From the NCBI GenBank assembly GCA_003222675.1, contig QHWT01000067.1:1-62094 (forward strand): 62,094 nt of DNA. Reading direction: 5' to 3'. The position numbers and the translations under genes are program-made. The DNA is from Acidobacteriota bacterium. Lineage in GTDB: Bacteria; Acidobacteriota; Vicinamibacteria; Vicinamibacterales; 2-12-FULL-66-21. Positions 1,726 to 62,094 of this stretch are shown here, piece by piece. The notes under the pieces were generated by a model that did no database searches, was not told where the DNA came from, and was given only the letters and a program-made list of their open reading frames with translations. Each line of letters starts with the position of its first letter. Position 1 is the stretch's first letter.

Positions 1726-2397
1726 GTGAGTCCGATTTTGGTACGTCCCGTCCGCGAGCAGCTCGAGCACGACAGAGTCATCCGGCTGCTGCTGACCCGC
1801 CTCAAGCGCAAACACGAGATCGCCATCAACATCGGCGACGAACAGGCGGCAGGCGTCAAGGTCGGAATAGGGCAGATGTTCCCCGATCTCGTCCTTACAT
1901 CGACGGATCGCGGCAAGCGCCTCGAAGGGATCGTCGAAGTTGAGACCGGCGAGTCCGTGAATCATCTCGAAGCGATGGCGCAGTGGGCGCACTTCGGCCG
2001 GATGCGCGTCCCCTTCCACTTGTACGTGCCAGCTGCCGCAGTCGATATCGCCAAGCGACTCTGCGCCGAGAACCAGGTCAACGTCGCGGAGATCTGGAGC
2101 TATCACACGATTGGCGATCAAACGCGGTTTACTCTGGTCCAGCGCGACACCACGCAGAGCGCACCGCGAGAGACGACTCGCCACGACGATCACAATGGCC
2201 AGCACAAGGCTCCGAGTGGAGACGTCAGGCGCAAGGGCACCACGCCGAGGACCGCGCCTCCATCGAGGACTACCGCATCGAGTTCCGCGAGAAGCGCCGG
2301 CCGCAAGGCTGCGCCGGCCGCACGCGGCGCCAAACCGCGCGCGAGCCGCGCAAAACCCGCGGCCAGGAAAACGGCTCGAACGCAAAAGAGGAAGTAG
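1726..2397 (+). CDS. Unknown protein with PD-(D/E)XK-like core and histone-like basic tail
   Basis: I do not recognise a named family. Residues 1-140 look like a compact alpha/beta domain with F52-P53-D54 followed by E71-V-E73. That spacing resembles the PD...(D/E)XK nuclease core, with E in place of the usual K. From about residue 150 to 223 the protein is a low-complexity tail rich in Ala, Lys and Arg, like histone H1 tails, which suggests nucleic-acid binding. The start is GTG 1726, with GGAGG four bases upstream. The next gene starts 3 bases after the stop, so the two form an operon. The nuclease role is inference. Confidence 0.65.
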   Translation: MSPILVRPVREQLEHDRVIRLLLTRLKRKHEIAINIGDEQAAGVKVGIGQMFPDLVLTSTDRGKRLEGIVEVETGESVNHLEAMAQWAHFGRMRVPFHLYVPAAAVDIAKRLCAENQVNVAEIWSYHTIGDQTRFTLVQRDTTQSAPRETTRHDDHNGQHKAPSGDVRRKGTTPRTAPPSRTTASSSARSAGRKAAPAARGAKPRASRAKPAARKTARTQKRK

Positions 2398-2400
2398 GCT

Positions 2401-3234
2401 CTGCCGCACCTGCGTTTCAATCGCGATCGTCGCGGATACGAAACCACCACGCTCGTCGACAACGCGCGCCGACGCGGCAAGGGACAGTCGCGAATCCTGT
2501 ATTGGTTTCGCACCCCGCCGGGAGTGCGTGTCGGGCGTTCCGCGATCGACGAAGATGCGATCCGCCTGCTCGAGCAGCACAACCCCGACGTTCAGTTCGA
2601 CTGGACGCACATCCTCAAAGCCACGCCGCAGCCGGCGCCGATCGAGACGGTCAGGGAACGAGGATTCGAGCAGGCCCAGGGACGTGCGCAGACGAGAAAG
2701 GAGCGCCGCGCATTTCCACGTGCTGCGGGACCGACGGCGCCGATCACGCGGGCAGTGCCGGACCCTGTTCGAGAAGAACCGCTGCTGCGGCAGCCTGAGC
2801 CCGAACCATTTGATCAACCGGACCCCGCCTCAGCTGCTCTTGTCGTGATGGACGAGCCTGGCATCGGCGAGGACGTCTTCGGCGCAGCGGACGAAGAGCG
2901 GATCGTGGAGCACGGTCCCGAGGACCGCACGCCTGCCGCCTTTCAGCGCCTTGGGTCGGAAGGCCTCGCGCGCCTGCGCGCCCGGTATGCCGAGGTGATG
3001 GCCCGCATTGCCGAGCGTCCGATGGAGGATGCCGCCAGAGAAGAGCTGAAACTGCGGGCCGAGCGCCTAAACCCAGACGGCTGGGTGACAGCAGACGAAG
3101 TACAGCAGGCGCTCGAGCAGTATGAAAGCGTGTTCGAAGGCGTGCGCTCGCTCGTTGGCACGCGCCGTCGTCGCAGGCGCCGTCGAGGCCAGGCGGGCCG
3201 GCCGGAAGGAAGCGACTCGAAGCCGGAAGCCTGA
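2401..3234 (+). CDS. Conserved-looking unknown protein, probable CTG start
   Basis: The protein has 277 residues. The N-terminal ~70 residues (starting LPHLRFNRDRRGYE, then ILYWFRTPPGVRVGR) look like a compact folded domain, followed by an acidic and proline-rich middle, a helical segment (about 190-255) and a basic end with eight consecutive arginines. Between the preceding stop at 2395-2397 and GTG 2524 there is no ATG, GTG or TTG in frame. Starting at 2524 would cut the domain. CTG 2401 has AGAGGAAG six bases upstream and begins directly after the previous gene, so I chose it. Function is unknown; the operon partner is the PD-(D/E)XK-like protein. Confidence 0.6.
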   Translation: MPHLRFNRDRRGYETTTLVDNARRRGKGQSRILYWFRTPPGVRVGRSAIDEDAIRLLEQHNPDVQFDWTHILKATPQPAPIETVRERGFEQAQGRAQTRKERRAFPRAAGPTAPITRAVPDPVREEPLLRQPEPEPFDQPDPASAALVVMDEPGIGEDVFGAADEERIVEHGPEDRTPAAFQRLGSEGLARLRARYAEVMARIAERPMEDAAREELKLRAERLNPDGWVTADEVQQALEQYESVFEGVRSLVGTRRRRRRRRGQAGRPEGSDSKPEA

Positions 3235-3252
3235 AGCCGAAGCCTGGAGCCT
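3220..3252. repeat. AAGCC-word micro-repeat before a VWFA gene
   Basis: Five near copies of the word gaagcc/tggagcc run through the last codons of the upstream gene and up to the TATAAT box at 3254. It is the same word family as at 172-199 and 11881-11910. Confidence 0.6.
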
Positions 3253-3253
3253 T

Positions 3254-3259
3254 ATAATG
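3254..3259 (+). promoter_or_regulatory. TATAAT -10 box, predicted leaderless start at ATG 3266
   Basis: A perfect TATAAT hexamer ends 6 bases before ATG 3266. An in-frame ATG at 3257 lies inside the hexamer and would not be on the transcript. The -35 region falls in the micro-repeat and is poor (CTGAAG at 3231-3236). Confidence 0.5.
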
Positions 3260-3265
3260 ACCATC

Positions 3266-4699
3266 ATGACGGCACATTTGAGCCGGCGAATGCTCTCGAT
3301 CGCGCTGGCTGTGTTCGCGGCGGGCGTTGCGACGTCTACCGTGAGCGGAGTCGAACGGCCTGGCCTGAGCACAGTCGAAGCGCGAGCAGCACAGAAGCCC
3401 GCAGCACCAGCTGCAGCGCAGAACGCAACACCGCAACCTGCGGCACAAAAGCCCGCGACGCCGACGCAGCAGCCCGCGGCGCAGCAGCCGCGCGAGATCA
3501 TCCGGCGCAGCGTCGACTTGATCACGACCGACGTGATCGTACGCAACAGCGACGGACAGTTTGTCGCGGATCTCTCGAAGGGTGACTTCGACGTCTACGA
3601 AGACGGCGTCAAGCAGGACCTCGTCACGTTCGTGCTGACGCACGGCGGCCGCATTCTCAACGACGTCGCCGCGCCGCCGCCGCCCGTGCAGGAAGGCATC
3701 CTCCTGCCGCCGCCGCGCCCGACCAACGATGCGTCGGGACGTATCTTCCTGATCTTCGTCGACGATCTGCACCTCGACTTCCGCAACACGGGGCGCATTC
3801 GCGATCTGTTCAAGAAGATCGGGAAGGAGCTCATTCACGACGGCGACATGTTCGGGATCGTCTCGTCGGGTCCCTCGTCGATCGCGATCGACATGACCTA
3901 CGACCACAAGCGGATTGACGAAGCGGCGAACAAGATCGCCGGCAACGGGTTGAAGCCGTCCGACATCATCGATGTGCCGGAAGGGCAGCAGGGACCGCCT
4001 GAGGTCCGCTACCGTGCCCACGTCGCATTCTCGACGGTGTACGACACCCTCAAGAATCTCGAGCAGGTGCACAACCGCCGCAAGGCGTTCATCTACGTGA
4101 GCAACGGGTACGACTACAACCCGTTCGCGACGTCGCGCGAGAGGGCAAGCGCCGAGCGCATGGGCATGAACTGCGACAGCTCGGTTCCCGGACAGGCGAA
4201 CTGCAGCGCCCCGAACGGCGGCGGCGACAGCGGGAACTCGTCATCCTCCGACGTCAACCCGTTCGATCGCACGAGCAATGAATTCGCTGCAGCGGATCTC
4301 GCGGCGGAGCTCGCCGAGGTGACGCGCGAAGCGAACCGCGCGAACGCAACCATCTACACGATCGATCCACGCGGTCTGGTCGGTGGACCGGATCTGGACG
4401 AGAAGGTCGACATGACGGAGTGGCAGAACTACATCCGTGAGTCGCAGAACAGCCTGCGGACCCTCGCAGAGCTCACGGGCGGCATCGCCGTCATCAACCA
4501 GAACGATTTCGACAAGGCGCTGAAGCGAATCGACGCGGAGACGAGCGACTACTACGTGTTGGGTTACTACTCCACGAATCCGGATCCGCTGAAGAAAAAG
4601 CGCAACATAGAGATCCGGGTGAATCGAAAAGGGAACTACGATCTGAAATACAGAACGTCGTATACGCTCAAGCCTCCACCGCGCACGAACACGCGCTAA
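3266..4699 (+). CDS. Secreted VWFA domain protein, acidobacterial type
   Basis: This belongs to the VWFA-related family typical of Acidobacteria. An N-terminal signal peptide (about residues 5-25) is followed by a Pro/Ala/Gln-rich linker, then the family's opening strand (IIRRSVDLITTDVIVRNSDG), then the VWFA domain with IFLIFVDDLHLDF in place of a classical DxSxS MIDAS site. The C-terminal part contains YYVLGYYSTNP, also family-typical. Extracytoplasmic adhesion or assembly is likely, but the family has no defined biochemical role. The leader contains a repeat-derived insertion (3342-3384). I chose ATG 3266 because of the -10 box at 3254-3259. Confidence 0.88.
   Translation: MTAHLSRRMLSIALAVFAAGVATSTVSGVERPGLSTVEARAAQKPAAPAAAQNATPQPAAQKPATPTQQPAAQQPREIIRRSVDLITTDVIVRNSDGQFVADLSKGDFDVYEDGVKQDLVTFVLTHGGRILNDVAAPPPPVQEGILLPPPRPTNDASGRIFLIFVDDLHLDFRNTGRIRDLFKKIGKELIHDGDMFGIVSSGPSSIAIDMTYDHKRIDEAANKIAGNGLKPSDIIDVPEGQQGPPEVRYRAHVAFSTVYDTLKNLEQVHNRRKAFIYVSNGYDYNPFATSRERASAERMGMNCDSSVPGQANCSAPNGGGDSGNSSSSDVNPFDRTSNEFAAADLAAELAEVTREANRANATIYTIDPRGLVGGPDLDEKVDMTEWQNYIRESQNSLRTLAELTGGIAVINQNDFDKALKRIDAETSDYYVLGYYSTNPDPLKKKRNIEIRVNRKGNYDLKYRTSYTLKPPPRTNTR
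3342..3384. repeat. In-frame direct repeat in the VWFA protein leader
   Basis: Two copies of a TGAGCnnAGTCGAA word lie at 3342-3355 and 3366-3379 (24-bp period). They encode residues just after the signal peptide (SGVERPGLSTVEARA). The word resembles dispersed TGAGCnnAGTCGAAGG repeats I recall from other high-GC genomes. Confidence 0.5.
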
Positions 4700-4708
4700 G
4701 CGATTATT

Positions 4709-5062
4709 GGCGCTCGGGGCCGCGGCTTTGCCGCGGTTCCCTCCGGCCCCTCGCTTAAGCTCGCTGCACTCGCTCGCGCTTGGCCTGCTCGCTCCGTTCC
4801 GCTCGTTTTTGGCGCTCGGGCCGCGTCCGGCTCCTCGCTTAAGCTCGCTGCACTCGCTCGCGCTTGGCCTGCTCGCTCTGTTCCGCTCGTTTTTGGCGCT
4901 CGGGGCCGCGTCCGGCCCCTCGCTTAAGCTCGCTGCACTCGCTCGCGCTTCGCCTGCTCGCTCCGTTCCGCTCGTTTTTGGCGCTCGGGGCCGCGTCCGG
5001 CCCCTCGCTTAAGCTCGCTGCACTCGCTCGCGCTTCACCTGCTCGCTCCGTTCCGCTCGCGG
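4709..5062. repeat. About four tandem copies of an 85-bp GC-rich unit
   Basis: Units begin at about 4709, 4811, 4895 and 4980 with GGCGCTCGGG. The spacings are 102 (the first copy carries an extra CCGCGGctttgCCGCGG hairpin), 84 and 85 bp. Each unit contains TCGCTTAAGCTCGCTGCACT and TGCTCGCTCCGTTCCGCTCG. Copies are nearly identical, which implies recent duplication or homogenisation. The open frames through it are by-products of the repeat. It fills the 456-bp gap between the VWFA gene and the TonB receptor. Confidence 0.9.
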
Positions 5063-5155: not shown

Positions 5156-8100
5156 ATGAGATTGCGTACCAAGGCGGTTTGGAGCCTGCCGATGGTGCTC
5201 TGTCTGCTTCTGCTCGCCGCGGTTTCAGCCGCGGCGCAGACGGTGACGACGGGCAACATTGCGGGCGCGGTGACTGACGCGCAGGGAGGCGTTCTTCCTG
5301 GCGCGACCGTAACGGCTCTGCACACACCGACCGGCACCAGCTACGAGGCGGTGACCGGCACGGACGGACGTTTCAGCATCCTGAACGTGCGCGTCGGCCC
5401 CTATACGGTCAGCGTGAACATGAATGGCTTCAAAGATCAGAAGCAGGAGAACGTCGAAGTGCAGCTCGGTCAGGAGCGCACGGTCGACTTCAAGCTGCAG
5501 CTGGCTTCCGTCACGGAAACCGTCGAAGTCGTCGCGCAGTCATCGCCGATCGATCTCTCGCGTGCGGGCACGGCCGACAACATTCCGAATACGGTCAAGG
5601 AAAGCCTCCCGACGATCAGCCGCAGCATGGCGGATATCGTCCGCATCAGCCCGCTCTTCAATTCACAGGGCGGCGGTTCGGGCGCGGACCAGTCCGTGGT
5701 CTCCGTGGCGGGCAACAGCTATCGATACAACGCGCTGCAGATCGACGGCGCGGCGAACAACGATCTGTTCGGCCTCGCGAGCTCCGCGGGCGCGCCGGGC
5801 GGCACCGCCGAAACGCAGCCGATCAGCCTCGATGCGATCCAGGAAATCCAGCTCGTGGTCTCGCCGTATGACGTCCGCCAGGGAGGATTCTCCGGCGGGG
5901 GCATCAACGCGATCACGAAGAGCGGCACGAACGCGATTCACGGCACCGCGTTTCTGTTCGGCAGGAACGAGAACTGGGTCGGCAAGGGCGTCACCAACAC
6001 CAAGATCTCCACGTTCAAGGACAAGCAGTGGGGCGGCAGCGTCGGCGGTCCGATCATGAAGAACAAGGCGTTCTACTTCGGCACCGCGGACTACGCGCGC
6101 AAGACGCGTCCGACGGGCGTGTCGGTGAACGCCGGCGGCCAGATCTTCCAGGGCGCCGCGTTATTCGACCGGTACATCGGCATCCTGCAGAACAAGTACA
6201 ATTACTCGACCGGCAACAACCCCGCCGGTGAATTCCCGAGGGAAACCGATAGCGACAAGTACTTCATCCGCGGCGACTTCAACGTCGCGCGCGGCCACCA
6301 GCTCACGGTCCGCCACAACTACGTCGACGCGCTGAACGACATCAGCCCGATCACGACGACCGCGTACCGGACGCCCGATGCCTTCTACCGTTACGTGAGC
6401 AACACGAACTCGTCGGTCGCCCAGCTGAACTCGCAGTTCGGCAAGGGCGTCAACGAGCTGCGCTTCACGTACACGCGCGTCCGCGATCACCGCCAGAGCC
6501 CGATCGGCAATCCACCATTTCCGCAGATCACCACGACGATCGCGCCCGGCGTGACCATCGTGTCCGGAACGGAGCAGTTCTCGGCGCGGAACGCGATCGA
6601 CCAGAACATCGTCGAGCTCAACGACGCGTTCACAATGTTGAAGGGGGGCCACACCTTCACGGTGGGCACCCACAATGAATTCCTCGACCTCTCGAACCTC
6701 TTCATCCGCGATAACTTCGGCACTTACGCGTTCACGAGCCTCGATAACCTGGAGGCCGGCTTCGCGCAGCGCTACGACCGCAGCTTCTCTGCGACGAGCG
6801 ATCCGCTGCAGCCCGCGGCGTTCATGGTGCGCCAATGGGGCTTCTACGCCGGCGACGCATGGCGTACCCGCTCGAACCTCACGATCACGTATGGTCTCCG
6901 GATGGACATTCCGACGTTCCCGGACAAGCCGAACGCGAACCCGGCGGCGGTGACGAATTTCGGCTTCGCGACCGACGTCGTCCCCAGCCATGTCGAGTGG
7001 TCGCCGCGCGCAGGCTTCAACTGCGATCTGAGTGGCAACGGGCGCCAGCAGATTCGCGGCGGTCTCGGCCTCTTCAGCGGCCGGCCTGCCTACGTCTGGA
7101 TCTCCAACCAGTTCGGCAATACCGGGATTGACTTCACGCGCATCGGCGCGAGCCAGAACACCGCCAATCGCATCCCGTTTGTCGCCGATCCGCTCAATCA
7201 GCCGACGACAGTCACCGGCGCGACGGCCGGTACGTTCACGAACGAGATCGACGTGATCGATCCGCACTTCAAGTACCCGTCAGTGCTGCGCGGCAACGTC
7301 GGTTACGATCACACGCTCGCATGGGGCATCATCGGCACTGCGGACGTCGTCTGGTCGAAGACGATCAAGGACATCAAGTACCAGAACCTGAACTTCGTGC
7401 CGGTAGCGGGTGCGACGGGCGTCGGCGGCCGGCCGTTCTTCGCGCGCAAGGTGACGACGCTCAGCGACGTCGTCCTGCTCGAGAACACGGACCAGGGCTA
7501 CTCGTGGAATATCGCGTACGAGGCGCGGCGTCCGTTTTCGAATGGATTCTTCGTGCAGGGCTCGTACTCTTACGGCGTGTCGAAGTCGATCATGGATGGC
7601 ACGTCGGACCAGGCGGCCTCGAACTGGGGCAACGTGTACGTGCCGGGCGATCCGAACAACGCGCCGCTCACGCGGTCGAACTTCGATCCGGGGCACCGCA
7701 TCACGTTCACGACGTCGTACGATCTGCCCTGGGCGAAGGTGATTAAGCCGTCCGTCGCGATCTTCTACTCGGGGCAGTCGGGCCGGCCGTACACGTTGAC
7801 GTACAACCAGGACGTCAACGGCGACAACCGCTTCACCAACGATCTGGTATATATCCCGACGTCGAGCGACCCGATCACCTACACGGGTGGCACGTACCAG
7901 GACTTCATCAACTGGATCAACGGCGACAGCTGCCTGACGCAGTACATCGGGCAGATTATTCCGCGCAACGCGTGCCGCGCCCCGTGGACGAACACGCTCG
8001 ACGGCCGCTTCGGGGTCCAGCTTCCGTTCAAGCGCGTGAAGACAGAGATCACGCTCGACGCGCTGAACCTCGTTAACCTCATCGATCACACGCGCGGGCT

Positions 8101-9295: not shown

Positions 9296-9380
9296 AGAAA
9301 GTTACCAGTTTCCAGTCACCAGTTTCCAGTTGTCGGCTGCCAGTTCCAGCGGGGAGCGCTGGAATCTGGAAGCTCGCCAC
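9296..9380. repeat. CCAGTTTCCAGT-word micro-repeat
   Basis: Degenerate tandem copies of ccagtttccagt/ccagttccag fill the upstream flank of the methyltransferase. The same words recur inside the uracil-DNA glycosylase gene at about 59056-59115. Confidence 0.65.
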
Positions 9381-19089: not shown

Positions 19090-19145
19090 TGACTGGTAAC
19101 CGGCAACCGGCTACTGGCAACCGGCTCCTGGTTACCGGCGACTTC
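19090..19145. repeat. CAACCGGCTACTGG-word micro-repeat
   Basis: Degenerate copies of ggcaaccggct/ggttaccggc lie between the terminator and the receptor's stop codon. Confidence 0.5.
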
Positions 19146-29191: not shown

Positions 29192-29300
29192 TTGATTTAG
29201 TGAATTGGTGATTCAGTGAATTGGTGATTTGGTGATTTTGCAAGCCGCGTCACCCAATCACCAAATTACCCAATCACCAGATTACGAAATCACCAAATCG
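29192..29300. repeat. GTGATTCAGTGAATTGGTGATT micro-repeat with inverted arms
   Basis: The left arm, 29192-29240, repeats gtgatt-yag-tgaattg words. The right arm, 29250-29300, repeats the reverse complement (caatcaccaaattac). Together they can form a long imperfect hairpin between the desulfurase and mnmA genes. The same family in the same arrangement is at 43409-43548. Confidence 0.75.
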
Positions 29301-43408: not shown

Positions 43409-43543
43409 ATTTAGTGATTGAAGTGATTCAGTGATCTGGTGATTGAGCTTGCGCGGGCTACCGCCCGCGCCATGAGGCACGCGCTGGCGCGTGCGAAGCC
43501 AAGTCACCAAATCACTGAATCACCAAATCACGAAATCACGAAA

Positions 43544-43548
<5 letters not shown>
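43409..43548. repeat. GTGATT-word micro-repeat with inverted arms
   Basis: The left arm (43409-43445) repeats tttagtgattgaagtgattcag. The right arm (43503-43548) repeats the reverse complement (aatcaccaaatcacg) and runs into the stop of the UXS gene. Between the arms are hairpins GCGCGGG-ctac-CCGCGC and GCACGCGC-tg-GCGCGTGC. The same family is at 29192-29300. Confidence 0.75.
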
Positions 43549-57738: not shown

Positions 57739-58953
57739 ATGGTGATTGCTCTCGGGGTCACCGGCGGTATCGGCGCCTACAAGGCGGTCGAGGTCGCGCG
57801 CGGGCTTCAGAAGCGCGGCCACGATGTCGTCGCGATCATGACGCACTCGGCGCGTCGGTTCGTCGGCGAGGTGACGTTCGAAGCGATCACGCGGCGGCCG
57901 GTCATCACGGATCAGTTCGCGCGCGGCGCGAACGCCGACATCGAGCACATCGCGCTCGCGACGGATGCGTCGCTCCTGCTTGTCGCGCCGGCGACGGCCA
58001 ACGTCATCGGCAAGTTCGCCAACGGCATCGCCGACGACTTCCTGACGTCGCTGTATCTCGCGACGCGCGCACCGGTGCTGATGGCCCCGGCCATGAATAC
58101 CAACATGCTCGAGCACGCGGCGGTACAGCGCAATCTGCAGACGCTCGCGTCGCGTGGAGTGCGGTTCGTCGATCCAGGCGAGGGGTTCCTCGCATGCGGC
58201 TGGATCGGGAAAGGACGGCTGGCCGAGCCTGACGCCATCGTCGCGGCCGCCGAACGCATCCTGCATCCCTCGGGGTCGCTGCTCGGTCGACGGATCGTGA
58301 TATCAGCCGGGCCGACGTTCGAAGATCTCGATCCGGTCCGCTTCATCGGCAATCGATCCAGCGGGCGCATGGGATATGCGATCGCGGCGGAGAGCGCACG
58401 GCGCGGCGCGCACGTCGTGCTCGTGTCCGGGCCCACGAAGCTCGATGCTCCGGCCGGCGCCCTCGTCGAACGCGTCAGAAGCGCCGCTGAAATGGCGCAG
58501 GCGATGGGCACGCACGCCGCTGGGGCCGATGCGGTGGTCATGGCGGCAGCGGTGGCGGACTACACGCCTGCGCACGCGCTCGATTCGAAAATGCCGAAAG
58601 GCGACGGGCCGCTGCAGATCACGCTTGTCCGCACGCAAGATATCCTCGCGGAGCTCGGGCGCCGGCGCGGCGACGCGCCGCTGCCGCTCCTGGTGGGTTT
58701 CGCCGCAGAGACTGGCGATCCGCGCGCGCGCGCGCGGCAGAAGCTGCAGGCAAAACACGTCGACTTAATCGTGGCCAACGATGTCTCGCGCTCCGATGCG
58801 GGCTTCGACGTCGAGACCAACGCCGCGATCCTGATTTCGGCGGATGGCGAGGTCGACACGCCCCTGCAACTCAAAAGCGAGCTTGCATCGACGATCATCG
58901 ACCGCATCGAGCAGATGCTCTCCACACGCGCGGCGGCGGCAAAGCAATCGTGA
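57739..58953 (+). CDS. coaBC: Bifunctional phosphopantothenoylcysteine decarboxylase/synthetase
   Basis: The N-terminal CoaC domain (about 1-180) decarboxylates phosphopantothenoylcysteine with FMN; the C-terminal CoaB domain makes that substrate from phosphopantothenate, Cys and [18 protein letters not shown] (8-22), APAMNTNML (115-123) and [10 protein letters not shown] mark Coa[18 protein letters not shown] and SSGRMGYA mark CoaB. The 404 residues are normal. Its stop overlaps the uracil-DNA glycosylase start (GTGA). Confidence 0.94.
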
Positions 58954-59762
58954 CCGACATCAGACACCAGGTCGCCGATCACCTGCGCTTCTTCGACGAG
59001 CTCGGCGTCACGGGTATCAGCCGTGACGCGGCATGGAGAAAGCGAGCCGCTCAGTCAGTTGCCGGTTTCCAGTCTCAAGCGGCCAGTTCCCAGTCACCGG
59101 TTTCAACGAACGAGTTGCCAGCGCCTGGCAATCAGGAACCGCCGCGTCCCGCGCCCCGGATCCCGCGCCCCGACGTGATTCACATCGCCCGCTCCTCCCA
59201 GGAAGTCCTCGACGCGATTCGCGCGGAGATTGGTCCGGACTGCTCACGCTGTAAGTTGCACACGCTCGGACGCCGGCAGATCGTCTTCGGCGTCGGCAAC
59301 CCGGACGCCGGCCTGATGTTCGTCGGCGAGGCGCCCGGCGGCGATGAGGACATCCAAGGCATCCCGTTCGTCGGCCGGGCGGGGCAGCTGCTGACGAAGA
59401 TGATCAACGCGATTCAGATCGAGCGCGACGATGTGTATATCGCGAACGTGATCAAGTGCCGCCCGCCGCAGAACCGGAACCCGGATCCCGACGAGGTCGA
59501 GACGTGCGAGCCGTTCCTGTTTCAGCAGATTGATGCGGTCCGGCCGAAAGTGATCGTGGCGCTCGGGTCCTTCGCGGCAAAGACGCTGCTGCGGACGCAG
59601 GATCCGATCTCTCGTCTGCGCGGCCGCGTCTACGACTTCCGCGGCGCGAAGCTGATCCCGACGTTCCATCCGGCGTTTCTCCTGCGCAGCCCCGACCGCA
59701 AGCGCGACGCGTGGGAAGACCTGAAGAAGGCGCGCGCGATCCTGCAGGACCGCGACGAGTAG
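58950..59762 (+). CDS. Type 4 uracil-DNA glycosylase with repeat-derived linker
   Basis: The 4Fe-4S glycosylase removes uracil from DNA. C98, C101, C170 and C186 are the expected cluster ligands. [20 protein letters not shown] (123-142) is the active-site region and [10 protein letters not shown] (His 240) the second motif. Residues about 34-70, between an N-terminal helix and the catalytic domain, form a Ser/Gln/Pro-rich linker encoded by a micro-repeat (59056-59115). GTG 58950 overlaps the coaBC stop. Confidence 0.92.
59056..59130. repeat. In-frame CCAGTTTCCAGT-word repeat in the glycosylase gene
   Basis: The words agttgccggtttccagt, ggccagttcccagtcacc and gagttgccagcgcc match the family at 9296-9380. 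They encode the linker of the glycosylase without breaking the frame. Confidence 0.65.
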
Positions 59763-59766
59763 CGCC

Positions 59767-62094
59767 ATGCGCGCGATCGCTGTCGGTGTTGCCGTACCTG
59801 GGCTCGGGCCGCTGACCTATGCCGTGCCGGACGCCATCTCCGATCCCCCAATCGGTGCGCGTGTGCTGGTTCCGCTGGGCAACCGCACCGTGACCGGCAT
59901 CTGCCTGGGGACAGACACCAGTCGTCCAGCTGCCAGGTGGGTAAACGAGCCGCCGGGGTCTGACCCCAGTCGGCCGGTTGCCGAGTGGGTAAACGGGCAA
60001 CCGGGGTCTGACCCCAGCGTCGTGACGCCCCGGGCCGTGGTCGACGTTCTCGACGACACGCCGTTCCTGCCGCTTGACGTGGTCGAGCTCGCCGCGTGGG
60101 TAGCGGACTACTACGCGTGCGGCGTCGGGGAGGCCATCGCGACGGCCATGCCGCCCCGCGCGTGGCTCGAGACCGAACGCCATGCGCGCGTCACGGATCT
60201 TGGTGAGGCGCGCATGCTCACCGAGCGCGGGCTGCGACGCGACGTCCTCGAGAAGCTCGCGGGAGGACGCGTCGTATCCGTCGAGGCGCTCGCGAAGAAA
60301 TCGCGCGGCACGCACGGTGCGCTGCTGGCGCTCGCGCAGGACGGGCTGATCACGCTGACGCGTCCGCTGCGAGGGCGCGCCGATGCCTCGCGCAGGGTCC
60401 GCGTGGCGATGCTGACGGCGCAGGGGAACGAGAAGACCGAAGGCGGCCCACGTCTCGGCCCTCGCCAGCAGGCGGCGCTCGATCTGCTGCGCGGCGCACC
60501 CGACGGTATCCGCGTCAGCGATCTCGCGGATCAGGACATCCCCAGCGCGTCAGTCGCCGGACTCGTTCGACTCGGGTTCGTCACGATCGAACGCCGCCGC
60601 GTCGAACGCGATCCCTTCGACAACAACTTGCACGAGCCAGCGACGCCGCCGGCCGTCTTCGACTTGACGGCAGAACAACAGGCGGCGCTCGAGCGGCTGC
60701 GCAACCTGGCGTCGAGACGCCGTTTCGAGACGGCGCTGCTGCACGGCGTGACCGGCAGTGGAAAGACCGAGATCTATCTGCGGCTCGCCAGAGACATGCA
60801 GGCGAGTGGGCGCGGCGTTCTGCTGATGGTGCCCGAGATTGCGCTCACGCCGGCGGCAGCCGCGATCTTCCGCGCCGCGTTCGGGGCCCGCGTGGCAATC
60901 CAGCACAGCGGCCTCTCCGACGGCGAACGCTACGATCAATGGCAGCGCATCAGACGCGGCGAGGTCGACGTGGTGGTCGGTACGCGCAGCGCGGTTTTCA
61001 CACCGCTTGCCAACCTCGGGCTGATCGTCGTGGACGAGGAACACGATGGCTCGTACAAGCAGGAGGAGAGTCCCCGTTATCACGGCCGCGACGTCGCGGT
61101 CGTGCGGGCGCGATCCGCAGACGCGCTCGTCGTGCTCGGCTCGGCGACGCCGTCACTGGAGACCTACTACAACGCGCAGAGCGGCCGTTACGCGCTGATC
61201 ACGCTCGAGCGGCGCGTGCTCGATCGTCCGCTTGCCAACGTCATCATCGTCGACATGCGCGCGGAGTACGTGACGGAAGGGCCCGACGTGGTGTTGAGCC
61301 GCGCATTGCGCGACGGGCTGGCCACCCGGCTCGAGCGCCGCGAGCAATCGATCGTGTTGCTGAACCGGCGTGGGTTTGCGACGGCCGTGTTCTGCCGTCA
61401 ATGCGGAGACACGCTCGAGTGCCCGAACTGCAGCGTGTCGCTGACGGTGCACAAGGCGGCCGGGCGCGCGCGGTGCCATTACTGCAACTACTCGCTGGCG
61501 CTGCCGAAGGTCTGCGCGAAATGCGCGGGGCCGTATCTCGAACAGCTCGGATTCGGGACGGAGCGGATCGAACAGGAGATTCGAGAGCATTTTCCGGGCG
61601 CCCGTGTCGGACGCGTGGACCGCGACACGATCCGCCGCCGTGGCGCCATCGCCGAATTGCTCGCGCGATTCGCGGGGGGCGAGCTCGACGTGCTGGTCGG
61701 CACGCAGATGATCGCAAAGGGGCACGACTTTCCGCGCGTCACCCTCGTCGGGGTCGTCAGCGCGGACGTGGGCCTGGGGCTCGCGGACTTCCGGGCGGCC
61801 GAGCGAACCTTCCAGCTTCTGACGCAGGTCGCCGGGCGCGCGGGGCGGGGTGAAGTCGCCGGAGAAGCGATCGTCCAGACGCTCTATCCGAACCATTACA
61901 GCATCCGTCACGCGTGCCGGCAGGACTACGCGTCGTTCTACGCCGACGAGCTACACTTCCGGCAGTCGATGCGCTATCCGCCCGCGGTCGCCCTGATCAA
62001 CGTTATCGTCAAGGGGAAGACGCGGCCGGAGGCCACGGAAGATGCCGGGACGATCGCGCGCGCGCTGCGGATTCCAGGGCTCGATGCTTACAGG
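59767..62094 (+). CDS. priA: Primosomal replication helicase PriA, 3' end beyond the window
   Basis: PriA restarts stalled replication forks. 776 codons are present and the frame is open at the right edge. Walker A GVTGSGKT is at 327-334, DEEH at 423-426 with YKQEESPRYHGRD after it, and the zinc-binding cysteines start at C543 (CRQCGDTLECPNC, then CHYCNYS and CAKC). Helicase motifs TQMIAKGHDF and QVAGRAGRG follow. An insertion of about 35 residues (49-83) in the N-terminal DNA-binding domain consists of two 16-residue repeats. ATG 59767 follows the glycosylase stop by 4 bases. Confidence 0.95.
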   Translation, partial: MRAIAVGVAVPGLGPLTYAVPDAISDPPIGARVLVPLGNRTVTGICLGTDTSRPAARWVNEPPGSDPSRPVAEWVNGQPGSDPSVVTPRAVVDVLDDTPFLPLDVVELAAWVADYYACGVGEAIATAMPPRAWLETERHARVTDLGEARMLTERGLRRDVLEKLAGGRVVSVEALAKKSRGTHGALLALAQDGLITLTRPLRGRADASRRVRVAMLTAQGNEKTEGGPRLGPRQQAALDLLRGAPDGIRVSDLADQDIPSASVAGLVRLGFVTIERRRVERDPFDNNLHEPATPPAVFDLTAEQQAALERLRNLASRRRFETALLHGVTGSGKTEIYLRLARDMQASGRGVLLMVPEIALTPAAAAIFRAAFGARVAIQHSGLSDGERYDQWQRIRRGEVDVVVGTRSAVFTPLANLGLIVVDEEHDGSYKQEESPRYHGRDVAVVRARSADALVVLGSATPSLETYYNAQSGRYALITLERRVLDRPLANVIIVDMRAEYVTEGPDVVLSRALRDGLATRLERREQSIVLLNRRGFATAVFCRQCGDTLECPNCSVSLTVHKAAGRARCHYCNYSLALPKVCAKCAGPYLEQLGFGTERIEQEIREHFPGARVGRVDRDTIRRRGAIAELLARFAGGELDVLVGTQMIAKGHDFPRVTLVGVVSADVGLGLADFRAAERTFQLLTQVAGRAGRGEVAGEAIVQTLYPNHYSIRHACRQDYASFYADELHFRQSMRYPPAVALINVIVKGKTRPEATEDAGTIARALRIPGLDAYR
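59920..60015. repeat. Two 48-bp direct repeats inside priA, each with a GGGGTCTGACCCC palindrome
   Basis: The copies at 59920-59967 and 59968-60015 encode SRPAARWVNEPPGSDP and SRPVAEWVNGQPGSDP. Each ends with the 13-base palindrome GGGGTC-t-GACCCC. A degenerate third version (GGGGACAGACACC) lies just before. The lengths keep the reading frame. Confidence 0.9.

Follow-up and report, generated by a model that had tools for sequence, protein, structure and literature searches.

How does part of a DNA repair enzyme come to be encoded by the seven-nucleotide words that fill the spacers between genes? The question is raised by a uracil-DNA glycosylase (UDG) gene in the window, as the whole stretch of 62,094 nt of an Acidobacteriota genome analysed here is called. 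A preliminary description of this DNA had reported that residues 34-70 or so of the enzyme are encoded by words matching an intergenic family at 9296-9380, and had proposed that a repeat had become, in frame, the linker between a helix and the catalytic domain. The coordinates of the features concerned are given in Table 1. Judged by its sequence, the gene product is a family-4 uracil-DNA glycosylase: it scores above the cut-off of TIGR00758 UDG_fam4 (E 1.1e-63, 214 bits against a cut-off of 125.3), and residues 113-259 match the Pfam UDG domain (E 7.9e-40). C98, C101, C170 and C186 occupy invariant columns in a structure alignment of 19 sequences (the window protein and 18 of 36 named loci); we take them to be the cysteines that bind the iron-sulphur cluster in family-4 UDG, and a cluster is predicted here. 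The alignment to the solved relatives 1ui0, 1vk2 and 4zbx begins at residues 91, 83 and 87, respectively, and among the 30 solved sequences matched it begins at residues 83-94 in 28 and at residues 112 and 116 in the other two. Since these sequences align only from residue 83 on, the N-terminal segment and the linker have no counterpart in those matches.

Table 1. Positions in the window of the UDG gene, its parts and the related intergenic arrays.
Feature	Position	Strand	Basis or remark
Intergenic array, same word family as the UDG array	9298..9346	+	49.3 bits
Second intergenic array, same word family	19090..19138	-	48.6 bits
Family-4 uracil-DNA glycosylase (UDG) gene, judged by sequence	58950..59762	+	270 aa, GTG start
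Conserved N-terminal segment, UDG residues 9-31	58974..59042	+	60% mean identity, 47 orthologues
In-frame ten-heptad array, CC(A/G)GT(T/C)N, UDG residues 36-58	59055..59124	+	Profile score, period-7 test
Small inverted repeat TTGCCAG-CGC-CTGGCAA, at array end	59115..59131	+	Sequence
Helix and catalytic domain, UDG residues 77-262	59178..59735	+	Identity, invariant cysteines, solved relatives

The linker is predicted to be disordered. In the AlphaFold2 model of the protein (19 sequences, mean pLDDT 74.1), 39 of residues 33-77 lie in stretches with pLDDT below 50, and no secondary structure appears from residue 37 until a helix at residue 83. Confidence is modest to low for the helices modelled at residues 4-17 and 27-37, where the pLDDT averaged over blocks of ten residues is 64, 63, 46 and 44. 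Mean identity to 47 orthologues is 60% over residues 9-31, 7% over residues 34-75 (gaps being counted as differences in this linker figure) and 77% over residues 97-262, and the nearest orthologue, from genome G003, shows 70%, 2% and 87% over the same parts. Measured from a conserved Trp-Arg, the linkers of 48 sequences are between 16 and 83 aa long, that of the window having 56, and between residues 33 and 84 there is no column in which one residue is found in half of these 48. No sign of a conserved linker sequence was thus found among the 48 sequences, a set to which the last four linkers do not belong. All orthologues with an alignable N-terminal segment have some linker at this place, indicating that the repeat lengthened or took the place of a linker that was already present and did not create it. 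The same-genus genome included in the search (88% complete) gave only a distant match to the UDG.

The linker array consists of ten heptads in register, TCAGTTG, CCGGTTT, CCAGTCT, CAAGCGG, CCAGTTC, CCAGTCA, CCGGTTT, CAACGAA, CGAGTTG and CCAGCGC. Eight of them differ from CC(A/G)GT(T/C)N at no more than two positions, five being exact, and the fourth and eighth are degenerate (3 and 4 mismatches). Self-identity over 59053-59140 is 0.47, 0.46 and 0.48 at lags 7, 14 and 21 and stays between 0.11 and 0.33 at all other lags in the range 2-24; the spacer at 9296-9380 reaches 0.55 at lag 7. The peptide encoded by the array has no regular amino-acid repeat unit. Beyond the array, residues 62-74 form a distinct proline-rich stretch, and a separate CCGCGCC array was reported by TRF at 59142-59172.

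A CCAGTTN profile built from 29 sites, all of them outside the window, gives 40.6 bits at position 59055, beside 49.3 and 48.6 bits at the spacer arrays of 9298 and 19090. Codon-shuffling 409 kb of genes 20 times gave at most 2.8 bits, with 19 of the 20 at or below -14.9, and among the eight sites scoring above 12 bits in 462 kb scanned, the UDG site alone falls in a called gene. With a profile made earlier, to which the spacer of the window itself had contributed, the score was 34.4 bits, and 20 Markov-simulated windows gave at most -0.2. Moreover, the linker has period 7 at p = 0.0002 against codon shuffles (periods 5, 8, 10 and 11 all have p >= 0.05). The UDG array therefore shares its heptad words with spacers, as the preliminary description had it, although the span of residues 34-70 given there was too wide, the array being confined to residues 36-58 and the proline-rich stretch lying apart from it.

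The same word occurs at many places in the genome, as in dispersed heptad families. Matches to the exact pattern CCAGTTNCCAGTNNCCAGT, overlapping ones included, number 52 in 7.16 Mb, against none for the pattern written backwards; the UDG array itself is too degenerate to be among them. Among 60 genomes, 10 contain any match to CCAGTTNCCAGTNNCCAGT, and only four, all from a single family, contain more than four (52, 28, 26 and 54). A sample of 462 kb, made up of the window and twenty 20-kb stretches (6.5% of the genome), holds 58 intergenic period-7 arrays with identity of at least 0.6, another 24 situated at the edges of genes and 19 inside them, genes having been called by a simple codon-usage script that missed the true start of priA and may misassign arrays near gene starts. 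Lag-7 arrays of this identity have a density of 109 per 100 kb in intergenic DNA and 5.2 in gene interiors, where lags 4, 5, 8, 10, 11 and 13 give 0.8-1.9 per 100 kb; in intergenic DNA, lag 8 comes next after 7 among the lags tested, with 30 per 100 kb. Many heptad words are present in this genome (for example AACCGTG, CCAGYTN, GAAGCCC and CCCGCAC), and some coding arrays belong to otherwise recognisable proteins, among them a UvrD-type helicase and an ABC-transporter ATPase, the latter in its tail. This C-terminal tail (locus L118, 9362-10438) repeats a five-residue unit, in most cases GSSVH, 11 times, and the array behind it is related to the AACCGTG family. Also in L118, the N and C domains of a thiolase (gene at 2054-3313) are separated by additional sequence in which a GSDPG-type repeat occurs. 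Inverted pairing was rejected as a defining feature of the arrays: perfect arms of at least 12 nt were found near 7 of 41 intergenic arrays and near none of the 41 controls with shuffled bases. However, each of two inverted repeats was counted for two arrays and one match was an ambiguous-base artefact, so pairing concerns a minority only.

A search of the 60 genomes for the UDG gave a match at E <= 0.001 in 58 and a strong one (E <= 1.3e-79) in 54, and these 54 were examined; matches in G001, G030, G041 and G045 were weak or distant, and there was none in G011 and G056. Two loci (L035 and L038) were excluded from the linker statistics because their N-terminal segment could not be aligned, leaving 52 linkers including that of the window. 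In the codon-shuffle test, period 7 is significant at p<0.001 in five of these, namely the window (G000), G027, G052, G018 and G032, and at p<0.01 in six, the sixth being G003. None of the 52 linkers shows period 5, 8, 10 or 11 at p<0.01, and 45 have no period-7 signal (p >= 0.05), for example that of G026 (p = 0.998). The peptides vary from word to word, and alanine and proline are abundant in many of the orthologous linkers.

For each heptadic linker one pattern was written for its word and searched in all 60 genomes, with the reversed pattern as a control. The window's word, CCAGTTN, has 52 matches in its own genome and none reversed, a count reached by one of the 59 other genomes. The corresponding figures are 32 and none for CCAGCTN in G003 (count reached by three others), 51, two of them in the linker, and none for AGCACNN in G032 (two others), 80, again with two in the linker, and none for GGACNCC in G052 (no other), and 8 and none for GGGCACC in G027 (no other). 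GRAGYCC, the word of G018, has 10 matches, two of them in the linker, and three reversed, a count reached by three others; eight matches outside the linker against three reversed give this word slight support from its own genome. The reversed pattern is not clean everywhere, being abundant for AGCACNN in G008 and for GRAGYCC in G000 and G020. The six genomes span five families (f1, f4, f8, f11 and f12), or four without G018. G000 and G003 share family f1 and similar words, and their linkers may descend from one ancestral array; as these two possibly represent one event and G018 is weakly supported, four to five separate lineages are counted. Within the genus of G032, G042 has a weakly heptadic linker (p = 0.0155) and no exact AGCACNN match in its genome, and G059 has 235 AGCACNN matches, yet no array in its UDG linker.

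Other kinds of repeat occupy the same place in further genomes. In G048 (L030) the linker is encoded in frame by an inverted-repeat element. Its arm is found again, each time with two mismatches, at 13 positions spread over eight other contigs, and is absent from the three other genomes searched. The arms are dispersed in the G048 genome, often paired 40-51 nt apart. A palindrome in the G016 linker occurs at only one other place and was not counted as a dispersed family. Periods of 9 nt and 21 nt were seen in the linkers of G033 and G050, respectively, and palindrome-like stretches in those of G014, G037 and G020.

The comparison of orthologues proposed in the preliminary description thus revealed a linker free of conserved sequence, and relatives with another word family and relatives with none are both found. 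As for the proposal that a repeat became an in-frame linker, part of the linker is indeed read in frame from the array, but it enlarged or replaced one already there, and the direction, from dispersed array to gene, is one that we infer. A repeat-derived origin of this coding stretch is nevertheless supported by the sequence comparisons.

We consider it likely that genome-private heptad arrays colonise an existing, tolerant UDG linker and that different lineages refill it with their private words. The genome holds many families of short, degenerate heptanucleotide arrays, chiefly intergenic, and a CCAGTTN array would have moved from among them into the linker, where it now lies in a coding stretch of predicted disorder. 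Arrays probably lengthen and shorten by replication slippage, and their spread would be due to template switching or to like arrays being copied ectopically into one another. A word in its stop-free orientation would stay open wherever the array lands, and selection would purge arrays from folded parts while sparing tolerant linkers, tails and loops, so that the UDG linker comes to be refilled by differing private words in each lineage. The pattern of lineage-private words in the linker is evident from the genomes compared; the selection behind it, and the neutrality of the linker, are presumed.

The frame-freedom invoked here follows partly from arithmetic. Since 7 and 3 have no common factor, three heptads make 21 nt and all frames read the same seven codons; in a perfect heptad array of at least three units, the three frames are accordingly either all open or all closed. 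A stop-free word is open in every frame, so that only the total length of the array must be a multiple of three, which by this arithmetic would be the sole frame constraint on open arrays. Within the UDG array (59055-59103), the three sense frames are free of stops, and there are stops in two antisense frames. Among 18 distinct CCAGT arrays, all sense frames are open in 10 and all antisense frames in 4, and frame-freedom therefore holds for some arrays and not for the whole family.

The next gene, priA (from 59767), offers a second site of this kind. A loop in its product measures 16-46 residues across 51 sequences, the window being one of two with 46. In the window this loop contains the palindrome GGGGTCTGACCCC twice, as part of a 48-nt tandem repeat that lies in frame at 59907-60017; the palindrome is found at 42 places in the window's genome. 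Two of the 51 PriA loops (G002 and G008) have period 7 at p<0.001; none reaches this level at the control periods 5, 8, 10 and 11, with one each at about 0.01 for periods 10 and 11. In G003 (L002) the PriA loop, with the peptide PPEGGSHE...VASAFRRT, is read from a long inverted repeat that is almost perfect. The presence of repeats in the PriA loop as well supports the tolerance of such sites and points to nothing peculiar to UDG. A stronger reading of both sites, which we regard as doubtful, is that active heptad words are rewritten repeatedly into the same permissive loops of replication and repair proteins by directed copying, not local slippage, so that in this order the loops would record the word family active in each lineage.

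The array could instead have grown in situ by slippage from a short seed, the spacer words being common because the replication machinery favours them, with no copying from spacers. The best other copy of the UDG array in its own genome has just 76% identity over 68 bp, shorter stretches matching better, so no recent donor is visible and none was found in that genome, which is in line with local growth. Furthermore, a survey cited in a study of Beggiatoaceae is described as having found heptads to be the most abundant class of long simple repeats in the majority of its genomes, with polymerase slippage proposed (PMC4679880). However, linker and spacer words agree at five fixed positions and have the degenerate last two in common, and every heptadic linker word recurs elsewhere in its own genome, weakly so for G018; growth in place without spacer copying thus has a modest probability at most. 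Alternatively, the sequence or length of the linker might be adaptive, for example in setting the distance between N-terminal segment and catalytic domain, the repeat having been recruited for a working peptide. The flanking segment and the domain are indeed conserved, and for other DNA glycosylases an influence of disordered tails and loops on search and turnover has been described (PMC9266487), but a selected peptide is difficult to reconcile with the range of linker lengths, the lack of any half-shared column in the 48 sequences and the different peptides specified by the different words, and we hold it to be improbable.

An array that works as a nucleic-acid structure, such as a hairpin or a binding site, and is merely located in the gene would have a precedent in the two spacer arrays (at 9298 and 19090), whose folds are more stable than those of shuffled sequences (z -2.12 and -2.86). 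An RNA structure of the UDG array was rejected, with z -0.04 and 97 of 200 shuffles equally or more stable, the small inverted repeat of Table 1 (7-bp stem) being the sole pairing in its centroid fold, and such a role is very improbable. Finally, the alanine and proline richness of many orthologous linkers could suggest that a GC-rich, low-complexity coding sequence looks like spacer by chance; set against the gap between the profile score and the codon-shuffled maximum, and against the period-7 test, this has a negligible probability. Colonisation of a tolerant linker by private heptad arrays remains the explanation that we favour.

Heptad arrays and intragenic repeats are already known from other bacteria. 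The GGGAATC and GGGGA(C/T)T heptads described in Xanthomonas and Nostoc (PMC4692102) are likewise degenerate, dispersed and over-represented in intergenic DNA, with some intragenic copies, but are characterised there as G-rich, capable of forming G-quadruplexes and biased to four units, whereas many words per genome are found here. The TAACTGA heptads of marine Beggiatoaceae, as presented in PMC4679880, are also intergenic, with few intragenic sets, mainly at protein edges; in the forward orientation they have stops in all three frames, unlike the CCAGTTN array of UDG, which is open in three sense frames. Intragenic REPs and Rickettsia palindromic elements resemble the UDG array in being dispersed and in frame, many of them in genes for DNA synthesis and repair, and recB of two Xanthomonas species is reported to carry different REPs at about the same site (PMC3733652). 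According to the same source, these elements are palindromic and the GTAG class often lies near tyrosine transposase genes, whereas the UDG arrays are heptadic; UDG is not named among the genes in its section on intragenic REPs. The UDG array is not itself a palindromic unit of the REP or Rickettsia type, its only stem being one of 7 bp at one end. The tandem repeats of Borgs described in PMC9879509 are similarly fast-evolving in DNA and yield disordered protein segments, but are perfect at the amino-acid level and reportedly under strong selection, whereas the UDG array is made of degenerate 7-nt units and shows no perfect or near-perfect amino-acid repeat. Among the open-licence papers listed in our searches, none dealt with heptad arrays in Acidobacteriota or with repeats in a UDG linker, which is not proof of their absence, and parallel refilling of one linker appears, to our knowledge, to be new.

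The UDG linker may thus be regarded as a natural experiment in how noncoding repeats become protein: conserved flanks bracket a linker that is heptadic in 6 of 52 genomes, with words that recur within each genome. It also gives a reason why genes can take up a unit whose length, 7 nt, is not divisible by three, namely that a stop-free word is open in all frames, and UDG linker sequences could serve to read out repeat turnover across the order.

Further repeats were observed elsewhere in the window. The top-scoring tandem repeat (4742-5059) has an 85-nt unit in 3.8 copies with 97% matches and sits just before a gene called at 5156. Two arrays have period 8, one at 29193-29298, in which TGATTTGG faces its complement, and one of CCAAATCA at 43499-43547.
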